Shown: positions 24,567 to 33,711 of the stretch, one piece after another | Numbering within the stretch: the first letter of the stretch is position 1 | Layout: the number at the start of each line of letters is the position of its first letter | Source of the DNA: Anaerolineales bacterium | GTDB taxonomy: Bacteria; Chloroflexota; Anaerolineae; Anaerolineales; Villigracilaceae | Length of the DNA stretch: 40,034 bases | Reading direction: 5' to 3' | Assembly (NCBI GenBank): GCA_011389535.1 | Contig: JAABUE010000009.1 | Location: forward strand, 1 to 40,034 | Notes under the pieces: generated by a model | What the model was told of the DNA's origin: nothing | Databases searched by the model: none | The model's input: only the letters and a program-made list of their open reading frames with translations | Program-made: the position numbers and the translations under genes

Positions 24567-24640
24567 CGAAAGAGAAAAATCCGTGAAATCTGTGGCCGAG
24601 AAAGTTTGTCTGAGTGAAATCATTTCGTGAAGGAAACAAC

Positions 24641-27600
24641 ATGAATAATCGTAAATACACCAACCGCACCTACCTCGACGCCCTCGAAAAGAAGGTTCTC
24701 GTCTTCGACGGCGCGATGGGCACGAGTTTACAAAACCAGGACCTGACCGCCGAACACTTCGGCGGCGAAGGTTACAACGGCTGCAACGACTACCTGGTCA
24801 TCTCATACCCAGAAGCCGTGGAAAAAGTCCACCGCTCGTTCCTCGAAGTTGGCGTGGACGTGATCGAGACGAACTCCTTCCGTTCCAACCGCATTACCAT
24901 GGCCGAATACGGCCTGGGTGACCGCGTCATCGAGATCAACGAAGCCGCTGCCTTTCTCGCTCGCCGCCTCGCCGACGAGTTCTCCAGTCTCCAGTCTCCA
25001 AAGTTCGTGGCAGGCTCGATAGGCCCGAGCGGCAAACTCCCTTCTGCCAACGACCCCGAGCTCTCCAACGTGGGGTTCGATGAATTGGCCGACGTATTCC
25101 GGGAGCAGGCCGTTGGTCTGATCAGCGGCGGGGTCGACCTGCTGCTGATCGAGACCTCGCAGGATATTCTCGAGGTCAAGGCCGCCATTACCGGTATCCA
25201 CCAGGCCTTTGACGAGACCAGCTACTACTTGCCGATCCAGGCCCAGGTCACGCTCGACACGACCGGCCGCATGCTGCTCGGCACCGACGTCAATGCGGCC
25301 CTGACCATTCTCGAAGGAATCGGCATCGATGTCATCGGCCTGAACTGCTCCACCGGCCCCGAGCACATGCGAGAGCCCATCCGCGTGCTCGGCGAAAACG
25401 CGACCCTGCCTGTCTCCTGTATCCCCAATGCCGGTCTGCCGCTCAATGTGGACGGACAGGCCGTCTACCCGCTCGAGCCCGAACCGTTCGCGAATGACAT
25501 GTACGAATTCGTCACCAAGCACAACATTTCGGTTGTGGGCGGATGCTGTGGGACGACGCCCGAGCACCTGAAACTTCTGGTGGACAAATTAAACGGACAC
25601 CCGCACCCGGCCCGCCCGCTTCAATCCGAACCCAAATTTGCCTCCGCCATGTCGGCCATCGCCATGCGACAGGACCCCCCGCCAACCTTGATCGGCGAGC
25701 GCTGCAATGCGCAAGGCTCGCGCAAATTCAAGCGGCTGTTGCTTGAAGAAGATTACGACCCCATCCTGGAGATCGCCCGCGAACAGGTGGAATTCGGCGC
25801 GCATGCCCTCGACATCTCCACCGCTGTCACCGAGCGCCCCGACGAGGTCGAGCTGATGCGCAAGGTGGTCAAAAAGCTCGAAATGGGCGTGGACGTCCCG
25901 CTGGTGATCGACACCACCGAGCTGGACGTGCTCGAGGTCGCGCTCAAGACTGCTCCCGGCCGCTGCCTGATCAACTCCACGCATCTCGAATCCGGGCCTG
26001 AGAAGGCCAAAAAGATCTTTGCGCTGGCCAAACAGCACAACGCCGCCGTCATCGTACTGACCATCGACGAGAACGGCATGGCCAAGACCGCTGAGAAGAA
26101 ACTCGAAGTTGCCAAACGCATCTACGATATCGCCGTCAATGAGCACGGACTCAAGCCCGAAGACCTGGTCTACGACACCTTGACCTTCACCCTCGCCACC
26201 GGTGACCCGGAATTTGCCGAGTCCGCGATTGCAACCATTGAAGGCATCCGGCTGATCAAGCAGAACCTGCCCGGTGTGCTGGCATCCTTAGGTGTATCGA
26301 ATTTGTCGTTCGGGTTGTCCGCTCATTCCCGTCCGGTGCTTAACTCGGTCATGCTATACCATTGTGTCAAGGCTGGCCTCGATATGGCGATCATCAACCC
26401 GGCCCATGTCACGCCCTACGCCGATATCCCCGCCGAAGAAAAAGAACTGGCCGAAGACCTGATCTTCAACCGCCGCCCGGATGCCCTGCAGCGCTATATC
26501 GAGCACTACGAAAATGCCACACCCACCGAGCAGGCCGCAGTCTCTAATCCCACCGAAGGCATGAGCCCCGAACAGCGCTTGCACTGGCGCATTGTCCACC
26601 GGCATAAAGAAGGCGTGGAAGCGGATATTGATGAGATCATCAATCGCTCCCTCACCCCTGGCCCCTCTCCCGCAGGGAGAGGGGAACAACTCCCTTCCCC
26701 CCTCGGGGGAAGGGACGGGGATGAGGGCGAGAAACCTCGCAAATACAACCCTCGCCTTCCTGAAGAACTAAAAGCTCGCATTCGTGAGTTACGCCAAAAC
26801 GCCACCGACCCTGAACAACTGATCTGGAATCTATTGCGTAACCGTGCTGTTCACGATGCAAAATTCCGGCGTCAGCATCCGGTTGCAGGCTATATCTTGG
26901 ATTTCTACTGTCATGAAGCCAAACTTGTGCTTGAGTTAGATGGCAGTCAGCATCTAAAAGATGAGCAGGCGAAATACGATGAAGAAAAAACCAAAACCCT
27001 GCAAGAAAAAGGTATTAAAGTAATTCGCTTCTGGAATAGCGATATTACGAATAAGACCGAAGAAGTGCTGAATGTGATTTGGAACGAGTTGGAAGAACGA
27101 CTCGCTCCCTCACCCCTAACCCCTCTCCCGCAGGGAGAGGGGAATAACTCCCTTCCCCCGAGGGGGGAAGGGATGGGGATGAGGGCGAACTCTCGTCATG
27201 AAGTAGCTGTTAATATTCTCAACAACACCCTCCTCCCCGCCATGAAAGAAGTGGGCGACAAGTTCGGCGCTGGCGAGTTGATCCTGCCTTTCGTGCTGCA
27301 ATCTGCCGAGGTGATGAAGAAATCCGTTGCCCACCTCGAAAACTACCTCGAAAAAGTCGAAGGTGTCAGCAAGGGACTGGTTGTCATCGCCACTGTCTAC
27401 GGCGACGTGCATGACATCGGCAAGAACCTGGTCAAGACCATCCTGGCCAATAATGGTTACGATGTGATCGATCTCGGCAAGCAGGTCCCGGCGGAGACGA
27501 TCATTTCCAGGGCTGCCGAGGTTAATGCCACCGCGATCGGCCTGTCGGCGCTGCTGGTCTCAACATCGAAGCAGATGCCGTTGATCGTCAACGAGTTGCA

Positions 27601-28684
27601 GCGGCGCGGGCACAAGATTCCCGTGCTGGTCGGCGGCGCAGCCATCAACCGTCGCTTTGGCCGCCGCATCCTGTTCACCGAAGATGGTGAAGCTTACGAC
27701 CCCGGCGTCTTCTACTGCAAGGATGCCTTCGAAGGCCTGGAGACGATGGATCAGCTCATCGTCCCTGAGAAGCGCGAGGAACTGCTTGCCCGTACCCGCC
27801 GCGATGCGGATATGGAAATGGGCCGCGCCTCCCAAAAACGGGCAGAAGATTCACCTAAAGAGCGCAGCACGATCATCCCGGCTCCCATTAGAGCGCCTGT
27901 CAAATTCGGCCAGCAGGTTGTCAAAGAGATGCCGTTGGAAATTGTTTTTCAGCACCTGAGCCGCAACGAACTCTACCGCCTGTCGTGGGGCGCGAAGAAC
28001 GCGCACGGCGAAGAGTGGAAAAAGCTGCAAAAAGAATTCGACGCCCGCCTGGACAAGATGAAGCGTGAAGCCCTGAAAACCGGCTGGCTCAAACCGCAGG
28101 CCGTCTATGGTTACTACCCCTGCCAGGCGGATGGCAACGATCTGCTCATCTATGAACCTGCCACACTAAATGGAACGGGCAACCCGCAAATCCTGACTCG
28201 CTTCTCCTTCCCCCGCCAGCCATACGGCGATTACCTGGCCCTCTCGGACTATTTCGCCAGCGTCGACTCCGGTCAGATGGACGTGGTCGCCCTCCAGGTC
28301 GTCACCGTCGGGCTGGAAGCCACCGAGCGTTTCGATGCCATGCAGGCCAAAGGCGATTACTCCGAAGCTTACTTCACCCACGGGCTGGCCGTTCAGACCG
28401 CCGAAGCGACCGCCGAATACCTGCACCACCACATCCGCCGCGAGCTTGGTATTGGCGAGGAACAGGGAAAACGTTACTCGTGGGGCTATCCCGCCATCCC
28501 TGAACTCGAAGATCACCGCAAAGTCTTTGACCTGTTGCCTGCGGTCGAGACAAAACTGGGCATGACCCTTTCGCCAGCCTACCAGTTGATCCCCGAGCAA
28601 TCCACCGCGGCTATCATCGTCCATCACAAGGACGCCAAATATTACAGCGTTGGCGAGTCCCGTGTGGAACAGTTGATGAAATAG
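24641..28684 (+). CDS. metH: Cobalamin-dependent methionine synthase carrying an in-frame DUF559 endonuclease-domain insertion
   Basis: HMT domain ([31 protein letters not shown]), pterin domain ([21 protein letters not shown]), cap/B12 domain ([26 protein letters not shown]), C-terminal activation domain; ATG at 24641 with AAGGAAA upstream. Confidence 0.95.
   Translation: [1347 protein letters not shown]
26645..26730. repeat. 86-nt multi-hairpin direct repeat, left copy, inside metH
   Basis: CGCTCCCTCACCCCTGGCCCCTCTCCCGCAGGGAGAGGGGAACAACTCCCTTCCCCCCTCGGGGGAAGGGACGGGGATGAGGGCGA. Confidence 0.95.
27103..27188. repeat. 86-nt multi-hairpin direct repeat, right copy, inside metH
   Basis: CGCTCCCTCACCCCTAACCCCTCTCCCGCAGGGAGAGGGGAATAACTCCCTTCCCCCGAGGGGGGAAGGGATGGGGATGAGGGCGA; 79/86 identical to the left copy by eye. 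Confidence 0.95.
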
Positions 28685-28693
28685 AATGATGGT

Positions 28694-28720
28694 GTAGAGC
28701 GAGATATTATCTCGCTCTAC
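28694..28720. repeat. 27-nt palindrome upstream of the RAYT gene
   Basis: GTAGAGCGAGATA-T-TATCTCGCTCTAC, 13-bp perfect arms. Confidence 0.95.
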
Positions 28721-28728
28721 GAACTGAC

Positions 28729-29373
28729 ATGAAAAATCTTGATTACCGCGAATACTATCGGCGAAATCTGCCTCACTTTCAACCGAGAGGGGCGACTTTC
28801 CTTGTAAATTTTCGTTTGGCAGGGTCTTTACCGGCTGCGGTGATTGAGCAATTGAAGGCCGAAACTCTAAAGCTTGAACAAAGACTTTTAAAAATATCAA
28901 ACAATGATGACAGGCTTAAATTGCGTGATCTTGAGCATCGCAAACTTTTTGACATATGGGACGATGCTCTACATTCCACAAAACATGGTCCGTTTTACTT
29001 GCAAGAAGATTTTGTAGCAGAAATTGTTGCCAATTCAATTCGTTATCACGATGGTGAATGGTTTGATGTGGAAGCGTTTTGCCTTATGCCGAATCACGTC
29101 CACCTTGTCTTGACTCCCTATAAAAAAACGGAAGCTACAGATTATAGCCTTACCCAAATTATGCATAACATAAAGCGAAATTCTGCTAAACAGGCCAACC
29201 AAGTACTGGGTCGGACAGGAGCATTCTGGCAGCACGAGAATTACGATCACTTTGTCCGCGATGCAGCTGAACTGGAGCGCATCATCAAGTATGTGCTCAA
29301 TAACCCAGTTAAAGCAGGTATTGTAGATGATTGGACCAAGTGGAAATGGTCTTATTGCAAATATGATTTGTAA
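28729..29373 (+). CDS. REP-associated tyrosine transposase (RAYT, Y1_Tnp/HUH family)
   Basis: DVEAFCLMPNHVHLVLTP (HUH), ITQ/TQIMHNIKRNSAKQANQVLGRTGAFWQHENYDHFVRDAAELERIIKYVLNNPVKAGIV. Confidence 0.92.
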   Translation: MKNLDYREYYRRNLPHFQPRGATFLVNFRLAGSLPAAVIEQLKAETLKLEQRLLKISNNDDRLKLRDLEHRKLFDIWDDALHSTKHGPFYLQEDFVAEIVANSIRYHDGEWFDVEAFCLMPNHVHLVLTPYKKTEATDYSLTQIMHNIKRNSAKQANQVLGRTGAFWQHENYDHFVRDAAELERIIKYVLNNPVKAGIVDDWTKWKWSYCKYDL

Positions 29374-29396
29374 AACGAGATAGTATTTCGTTCTAC
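29370..29396. repeat. 27-nt palindrome overlapping the RAYT stop codon
   Basis: GTAAAACGAGATA-G-TATTTCGTTCTAC; 22/27 identical to the upstream copy. Confidence 0.92.
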
Positions 29397-29407
29397 GTGG
29401 AAATATC

Positions 29408-29911
29408 ATGCCCTACAAATTCTGCCCCCAATGCGCTACGCCTTTAGTCTCCGCCGAAGTGGACGGCTGCTCACGTCTGAAATGCCCTACCTGCAATTTC
29501 GTTATCTGGGATAACCCCATCCCGGTGGTGGCGGCCATCGTTGAGCACGGAGGCAAAGTCATTTTGACACGCAGCAAGGGCTGGCCCGAGAAATGGCTCG
29601 GCATCGTGGCCGGATTCCTCGAGAACGGAGAAACCCCTGAAAACGGCGCCCTGCGTGAAGTCAAGGAAGAGCTCGGGCTAGACGCCGAGATCGTCAGTTT
29701 CCTCGGGCATTACCCCTTCGAATTGCGCAACCAGATCATTTTCGCATATCACGTCCGTGCTGAGGGCGAGATCACACTTGGCGAAGAATTGGAATCCATC
29801 AAAGTGTTGCCTCCTGAAGAAATCCGTCCATGGGATGTGGGCACCGGTCCGGCGTTGAAAGACTGGTTAGCAGGTAGAACAAAGGCAAAAACAGGCATGG
29901 AGGAGCAGTAG
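29408..29911 (+). CDS. NUDIX hydrolase with N-terminal zinc ribbon
   Basis: FCPQCATPL...LKCPTCNF; GFLENGETPENGALREVKEELGLDAEI Nudix box. Confidence 0.93.
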   Translation: MPYKFCPQCATPLVSAEVDGCSRLKCPTCNFVIWDNPIPVVAAIVEHGGKVILTRSKGWPEKWLGIVAGFLENGETPENGALREVKEELGLDAEIVSFLGHYPFELRNQIIFAYHVRAEGEITLGEELESIKVLPPEEIRPWDVGTGPALKDWLAGRTKAKTGMEEQ

Positions 29912-31812: not shown

Positions 31813-33711
31813 ATGAGTACCTCAAAATTCTTGGATTTATTGGATAGTGGGCCCACATTGCTGGCTGACGGCGCGATGGGGACCATGCTGCACGGGCGTG
31901 GTGTTGGCTTCGACAAATGCTTCGATGAGCTGAATATCACTTCCCCCGCTGTTGTTGCGCAAGTGCATCGCGAATATATCGAAGCGGGCGCGCAGATTAT
32001 CCTGACCAATACGTTTGGCGCAAACCGTTATAAACTGCGCAAGCATGGCCTGGAAAAAAGTTTGACTCAGATCAACAGTGCCGGCGTGGAACTTATGCGC
32101 CGCGTGGTGGCGGCTTCCTTCAAGGATGTTTTTGTCGCGGGCGATATTGGCCCGCTGGGAGTACGCATCGCACCCTATGGACGTGTTTCGCGGGAGGAAG
32201 CGCGCGCTGCTTTTGGCGAACAGGTTTCTGCCCTGGCGGAAGCGGGCGCGGACCTGATCGTGATCGAGACCATGACCGACCTGTATGAGGTCCGGGAAGC
32301 AGTGCGGGCGGTGCGCGAAGTTTGCGCGTTGCCGGTGGTCGCTTCGGTCACGTTTACGCGCGACGACCGTACGCTGCTGGGCGATGACCCGGCCAAGGTG
32401 GCGCGTGTTTTGGCTGAAGAAGGCGCAGACGTAATCGGCGTCAACTGTTCGGGCGGACCTTCCCAGCTACTGCGCATCCTGCGCCAGATGCGGCAGGCTG
32501 TGCCAGTGCGGAGTGTGGCTGAGTCACTCTCTGAGGGGGGCAGCCGCCAGCATTTCTGGGTCAAACCGAATGCGGGTTGGCCGGAGCAGGTTGGGGGGCG
32601 CATTATGTATCCCGCCGAGGCAGATTACTTTGGCGATTACGCCCTGGCTTTTTGCGAGGCCGGGGCCAGCATCGTCGGTGGTTGCTGCGGTACAACCCCA
32701 GCCCACATCGCCGCGATGCGCGCCGCTCTGGACGCAAACCCGGAGGGCTGCAACACCTCATCTTTTGAGTTTATCGCGCCTCCCGAAACGGAGGAAGGCG
32801 AACTGACAACCGAGAAGCCCTCTCCCCTGGCCCAACGTATGACAAACGGGCAGTTTTCCATCGCCGTGGAAATGAGCCCGCCGCGCGGCCTTTCGACCCA
32901 CAAGCTGATTGCCGGCGCTTCGCTCCTGGCCGAAGCCGGCGCGGACGTGATCAACGTGGCCGACAGCCCCATGGCGCGCATGCGCATGTCCGCCTGGGCC
33001 GTGTGCGATGTGGTCAGGCGCCAGGTGGGCGTGGATACCACCCTGCACTTCCCCACCCGCGGGCGCAACCTGCTGCGCGTGCAGGGCGACTTGCTGGCCG
33101 CGCACGCGCTTGGCATCCGCAACGTGTTCGTTGTGATGGGAGATCCGACTTCGATCGGCGACTATCCCGAAGCAATGGACAACTACGATCTGGTTCCTTC
33201 CGGCCTGATCAAGCTCATCAAACAGGGTTTCAACGCCGGTGTGGACCATTCCGGCACCAGCATCGGCCAGCCGACCAATTTTTACGTCGGCGCGGCGCTC
33301 AACCTGTGCCCGCCTGACCCTGAACGTGAGATCAAGAACCTGCACCGCAAAGTCCTCAGCGGCACGGATTTCTTCCTGACCCAACCCATCTACCGCTCAG
33401 AGGATGGACCGCGGTTATTGGAACAGTACGAAGCCAGACATGGAGCGTTGAACAAGCCGATTTTGGCCGGGCTTTTGCCGCTGGTCAGCACGCGCCACGC
33501 CAATTTCCTGCACCATGAAGTGCCGGGGATTTTCATACCAGACGAGATGCTGGTGCGGATCGAGGCTGCCGGGGAGGAAGGCGCGCGCGTCGGGGTGGAA
33601 CTGGCGGTAGAACTGGTTGAGGGGCTCAAAAAGTGGGCCAGCGGCGTTTACATCATGCCTCAGTTCCATCGCTATGACATGGTCGCGGAGATCGTAGAAG
33701 CGGTAAAATAG
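31813..33711 (+). CDS. Bifunctional homocysteine S-methyltransferase / 5,10-methylenetetrahydrofolate reductase (YitJ-like)
   Basis: N-term [31 protein letters not shown]; C-term [38 protein letters not shown]...VFVVMGDP...[11 protein letters not shown]. Confidence 0.93.
   Translation: [632 protein letters not shown]

Follow-up and report, generated by a model that had tools for sequence, protein, structure and literature searches.

The cobalamin-dependent methionine synthase gene (metH) in the window, namely the 40,034-nt stretch of DNA analysed here, which forms part of contig C200 of a 2.6-Mb draft genome, was found to carry an in-frame insert in which a complete DUF559 nuclease splits the cobalamin cap domain of MetH. 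We consider it probable that this insert is a homing-type nuclease cassette that is tied to coding palindromes, lies in frame, and does not splice. The features concerned are, in window coordinates:

24638 to 28684, forward strand: host gene metH, a single open frame with the insert included.
26645 to 27193, forward strand: in-frame insert of 183 codons (549 nt) between cap-domain helices 1 and 2, where the loops of relatives comprise 4-6 codons.
26644 to 26730, forward strand: left copy of the 87-nt palindromic repeat, translated as RSLTPGPSPAGRGEQLPSPLGGRDGDEGE, a predicted disordered linker (pLDDT < 50).
26662 to 26684, unstranded: inner palindrome 1 of the left repeat, CCCCTCTCCC-GGGAGAGGGG.
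26691 to 26715, unstranded: inner palindrome 2 of the left repeat, TCCCTTCCCCCC-GGGGGAAGGGA.
26747 to 27094, forward strand: DUF559 nuclease domain, in which every residue invariant in the embedded subfamily is conserved.
27102 to 27188, forward strand: right copy of the 87-nt palindromic repeat, in direct orientation and another reading frame, at a spacing of 458 nt.
27120 to 27142, unstranded: inner palindrome 1 of the right repeat.
27149 to 27173, unstranded: inner palindrome 2 of the right repeat.

A sequence-only reading of this DNA had described an uninterrupted metH frame with a 549-nt insert at these coordinates, all of which held: the product passed the equivalog model TIGR02082 (1078 bits vs the cut-off of 1010.85) in two stretches, one on either side of the insert, and retained both the Zn-site (GLNCS/GGCCG) and the cobalamin motif GDVHDIGK. 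The junctions, after DEIIN and before RHEVAV, were confirmed by comparison with relatives. As the same reading had proposed, the nuclease domain is complete, and a profile search of the whole protein assigned MetH residues 711-818 to DUF559 (PF04480) with an E-value of 5.7e-34; with the insert alone as query the E-value was 2.5e-35. The PF04480 score of 121 bits exceeded the curated cut-off of 20.6. The absence of an ATG ahead of the nuclease was also borne out and extends to GTG and TTG, none of the three occurring in frame within the insert upstream of the domain; the first in-frame start-type codon is a TTG at 26834, inside the DUF559 domain and 30 nt ahead of its FRRQ motif. Production of the putative nuclease solely as part of MetH is thereby supported at the sequence level. 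The sequence-only reading had missed, however, the direct 87-nt repeats that flank the ~117-residue DUF559 domain on its left and right. These are 92% identical to each other, each with two palindromes; at a spacing of 458 nt, which is not divisible by 3, they fall in different reading frames, so that their likeness resides at the DNA level.

An intein-like lifestyle without splicing had likewise been suggested, and our searches supported it in that the insert contains neither a Hint domain nor an intron. The only Pfam matches of the insert were DUF559 and MTES_1575, and TIGR01443 was absent from the NCBIfam matches of MetH, which led us to reject identity with an intein; a group I or group II intron was rejected as well, since Rfam returned no intron family at E<=1. 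It could still be argued that a degenerate intein or intron is removed at the protein or RNA level via an unrecognised element, given that DUF559 is the endonuclease of true inteins (L267 and L272) in related genomes, but the inserts in MetH, ValS and HrpA are multiples of 3, free of stops and flanked by flexible linkers, and we regard this explanation as very unlikely. The two inteins, found in two genomes of the class (L267, 513-3581, reverse strand; L272, 1438-4296, reverse strand), reside in a CcrM-like DNA methyltransferase and match TIGR01443; in them a DUF559 domain, more distant than the embedded subfamily, replaces the LAGLIDADG or HNH endonuclease. The occurrence of DUF559 at the endonuclease position of inteins speaks independently for a role of the family in homing.

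The AlphaFold model of the DUF559 domain (mean pLDDT 89) was compared with solved structures by Foldseek, and the nearest folds were those of 3hrl, a DUF559 protein, and 3r3p, the homing endonuclease I-Bth0305I (Foldseek E=6.6e-5, TM 0.65/0.76; profile E=0.002). The domain thus shares the fold of the catalytic domain of an EDxHD homing endonuclease. Residues E24, D53, E64, H70 and D79 were invariant in the embedded subfamily, of which the profile alignment to 3r3p spans positions 41-113 only. The homing-type nuclease of the sequence-only reading is accordingly upheld with respect to its fold, and the cutting of a target is what we infer. PDB sequence matches at E>0.3 were discarded as chance, and PADLOC gave only weak DpdF and homing-endonuclease matches. 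In a model of the MetH fragment, helices 59-69 and 249-275 of the cap bordered the insert, which together with the short loops of relatives supports the earlier assignment to a tolerant inter-helix loop. The nuclease was predicted to form its own folding unit (pLDDT ~67-88 per block); the two stretches that derive from the repeats stayed below a pLDDT of 50, and the overall pTM of 0.35 means that the relative placement of the domains is not predicted. The model is consistent with the repeat-derived stretches being flexible linkers.

The MetH loop was compared across 60 related genomes and further fetched loci. It was empty (e.g. ...DEIINRGDFPTKHETAV...), occupied by a short repeat-like insert, or occupied by a repeat-DUF559-repeat unit, in every case in frame. 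These empty sites, which run counter to the expectation that an ancestral domain would be present in all related MetH proteins, led us to reject the reading as an ancestral domain; together with patchy occupancy and incongruence between cassette and host, they favour the insertion that had been postulated. A repeat-like insert alone was seen in L025 and L027, the latter being exactly 87 nt with the arms of the repeat; some of the repeat-only alleles of MetH and ValS are short and degenerate, and may not all be true repeat copies. The incompleteness of the source draft (65%) could be taken to indicate an assembly chimera or a frameshift artefact, yet over 20 further non-identical cassettes show the same architecture in frame at the identical loop; they stem from numerous independent assemblies, among them a 1.16-Mb contig, which renders such an artefact extremely unlikely. 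Nearly all carriers are metagenome assemblies.

On the host MetH tree, occupancy changed 10 times, with at least 8 of the changes forced by well-supported branches. Furthermore, although the hosts L081 and L123 are sisters (support 100/99), a sister relationship of their nucleases was rejected (AU p=0.00026); conversely, L076 and L081 have neighbouring nucleases, yet a sister grouping of their hosts was rejected (p=1e-75). The nuclease trees were built from ~115 columns. These occupancy changes and the conflict between cassette and host imply that the cassette either travels between metH alleles or undergoes loss and renewed gain. Some of the incongruence could stem from lateral transfer of entire metH segments. 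Pairwise identities of the metH flanks in L076 vs L081/L123 were suggestive of co-conversion, with tree tests rejecting neither grouping, and no clear target-site duplication was seen at the MetH loop insertions.

A profile (A1) was built from the embedded nucleases and searched against GTDB species genomes and 396 genomes of the class, and its best matches lay almost all within long ORFs. After de-duplication, 24 rows were in MetH, 4 in ValS, 7 in HrpA (at two sites), 4 in HsdM-type proteins and 36 in others, the last including the inteins L267 and L272 and two or three cases (L082, L084, probably L192) that resemble stand-alone nucleases beside a long open frame. Among the hosts that profiles confirmed are ValS, HrpA, YgiQ, PIG-L, a UvrD-like helicase, HsdM and MmeI, and several DNA methyltransferases are also among the hosts of the repeat-DUF559 architecture; hosts passed curated equivalog models across the insert. 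In total, ~70 distinct cassettes were recognized, spanning Chloroflexota, Pseudomonadota and Bacteroidota-group bacteria, so the phenomenon, which the sequence-only reading had described for MetH, extends to many genes and several phyla. In ValS, four alleles were occupied, others in the same genus were empty, and one (L228) was repeat-like. HrpA site 1 was occupied in L142, L163, L139 and L141, of which the first two were empty and the last two repeat-only at site 2, the latter being occupied in L155, L159 and L170. The cassettes of MetH, ValS and HrpA thus behave as homing elements do, being site-specific and patchy and spreading against the host phylogeny. The nuclease tree clustered by host site; in addition, the nuclease of the UvrD-like helicase (L088) was sister to a MetH nuclease (L018; support 100/98), and the HrpA site-2 nucleases were nested within those of site 1, which indicates that the element switches sites and genes.

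The nuclease is under purifying selection, with dN/dS values of ~0.10 for MetH cassettes and ~0.13 for HrpA cassettes (pairs with dS below 1.5, few of them from HrpA). Such selection, together with the weak similarity to the PADLOC DpdF model, would also fit a domesticated domain: MetH, ValS and HrpA would have recruited DUF559 to serve the host, for instance in DNA repair or phage defence, and it would have passed down vertically with frequent losses. Against this speak hosts that are unrelated and have only a tolerant loop in common, close relatives without the domain, the conflict between cassette and host trees, and flanks made of repeats resembling transposable elements; domestication is thus unlikely.

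The palindromic repeat was not confined to metH. Its pattern gave 24 matches in this genome (G000), vs 0 for the reversed-pattern control, corresponding to ~16 sites, many of which are in frame within genes. Solo copies lie in frame in MurE, MutM, isopentenyl phosphate kinase, an F420-dependent oxidoreductase, a fatty-acyl-AMP ligase and other ORFs, and the first four of these proteins passed curated models despite the internal repeat; loci of this kind are on contigs C8 (L276), C24 (L278), C3 (L274), C13 (L277) and C73 (L280). The 87-nt repeat therefore resembles the Rickettsia palindromic elements in occurring in frame in unrelated genes. Matches of the repeat to miRNA families in Rfam were far under their cut-offs and were dismissed as chance hairpins. 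Across the loci, the density of the palindrome motif was 34-fold higher in cassette flanks than in the remainder of those loci (7.75 vs 0.226 per kb); a weaker but similar association was seen at stand-alone DUF559 genes (3.69 vs 0.128 per kb). Repeats were present on both sides of 51 of the 75 embedded cassettes, and the flanks resembled each other, in either orientation, in 57 of the 75.

Alternatively, the repeats themselves might be what is mobile, driven by some transposase, for example a RAYT, with DUF559 as a passenger or an occasional two-repeat composite whose nuclease is kept for another role. Solo repeats are indeed more numerous than cassettes, several genes contain them in frame, and a gene for a RAYT-type Y1 transposase (28729-29373, forward strand) is located directly 3' of metH. 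However, the nuclease subfamily is mostly repeat-flanked across phyla, its members cluster by host site yet conflict with the host tree, and it has the fold of a homing endonuclease. Moreover, a search of 28500-29500 around the Y1 gene found no copies of the 87-nt repeat, the only repeat structure being a separate perfect hairpin with 13-nt arms (GTAGAGCGAGATA-T-TATCTCGCTCTAC, 28694-28720) ahead of that gene, which may be the Y1 gene's own REP or the metH terminator. The downstream transposase was therefore rejected as the mover of the 87-nt repeat, there being no sign of the flanking repeats that a RAYT would process. Taken together, we find it rather doubtful that the repeat alone is the mobile unit.

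Our comparisons showed that the same tolerant loops are occupied in frame again and again, that the cassette is gained or lost and has moved from one allele, gene or phylum to another, that the nuclease is under selection, and that it is linked to the coding palindromes. In the mechanism that we favour, the mobile cassette would be a Vsr-fold DUF559 homing-type endonuclease bracketed by coding-compatible copies of the palindromic repeat; it would sit in frame in permissive surface loops of conserved proteins and never be removed, its translated repeats serving as flexible Pro/Gly/Glu linkers so that host and nuclease could fold side by side. The host-fused nuclease would cut cassette-less alleles, its target being the empty host site, the solo repeat, or both; an allele that bears the cassette would then recombine with the cut one so that the cassette is copied in, and the dispersed repeats would supply an ectopic route to new genes. 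Insertion in a conserved loop would ensure that the cassette is expressed and can reinvade once transferred, and its imprecise removal would harm the host gene. The clustering of cassettes by host site speaks for specificity towards that site, and the solo repeats and rare host switches argue for the repeat-mediated ectopic route. We rejected a simple excision in which the direct repeats recombine with each other, because the 458-nt spacing would shift the frame of the window allele; among MetH cassettes with alignable repeats the spacing was not a multiple of 3 in 9 of 12, and such recombination thus cannot, in most cases, interconvert cassettes with in-frame solo-repeat alleles. The nuclease hitchhiking in MetH that was suggested earlier is retained as an acquired insert, the unit being repeat-DUF559-repeat and not the nuclease alone.

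Inteins with homing endonucleases are likewise in frame, patchy and site-specific in conserved genes, carry the nuclease within the host ORF, conflict with the host tree, and in the same class may contain DUF559 itself; in contrast, the cassette has no Hint splicing domain, appears to stay in the mature protein, is flanked by DNA palindromes, and occupies peripheral loops. Among EDxHD or Vsr-like homing endonucleases, to which a DUF559 gene has been assigned (PMC9403480), I-Bth0305I (PDB 3R3P) is the closest solved fold besides a DUF559 protein; PMC3943268 (citing Taylor et al., 2011) places it among group I intron homing endonucleases with DNA-binding extensions, whereas the cassette would correspond to the catalytic core only, within an enzyme. 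The Rickettsia palindromic elements (~150 bp), described with no associated nuclease in the review PMC10969869, lie in frame in many unrelated genes like the solo repeats found here; the present case differs in that repeats bracket a nuclease cassette and in that it concerns other phyla. REPIN/RAYT systems also combine many-copy short palindromic repeats with a DNA-processing enzyme, but there the enzyme, RAYT, is a Y1 transposase and the REPs lie mainly outside genes (PMC3116915), whereas here the enzyme is a DUF559 nuclease and the repeats are intragenic and translated. In the open-access literature, no paper was found on DUF559 cassettes in frame within other genes.

Intragenic mobile nucleases have been thought to require intron or intein splicing in order to spare the host. 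Here, an apparently unspliced nuclease is tolerated in essential or near-essential enzymes, its own flanking repeats serving as putative protein linkers, and the cassettes mark where MetH, ValS and HrpA naturally permit insertions. In-frame palindromic repeats in bacterial genes were first reported in Rickettsia, and we know of no explanation for them so far; the cassette offers a concrete candidate for the engine behind them. We put at about even the chances that endonuclease and coding palindromes constitute a separate class of mobile element, which would reside permanently, as translated internal domains, in MetH, ValS, HrpA and other housekeeping enzymes of several phyla, would spread through homing-like recombination, and would provide the machinery that underlies in-frame solo palindromes of bacterial genes.

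Several further observations concern the surroundings of these elements. Stand-alone DUF559 loci in the same family of genomes (L055-L072 and others) are apparently flanked by a different palindromic repeat, translated approximately as PPPNSKxxxLGEE / GRxGWG, suggesting from these flanks that DUF559 may generally be tied to repeat elements. A homocysteine S-methyltransferase/methylenetetrahydrofolate reductase-like protein is encoded near metH (31813-33711, forward strand), an ordinary methionine-cycle neighbourhood. The same MetH loop carries AATTACC heptamer repeats (SPITNYQLPTT) in L022 and L102 (genomes G017 and G036) and a TTDYTDYTDFTEEKSAESVKSVV-type repeat in L110 (genome G060), and these other repeat families point to the loop as a general landing site.
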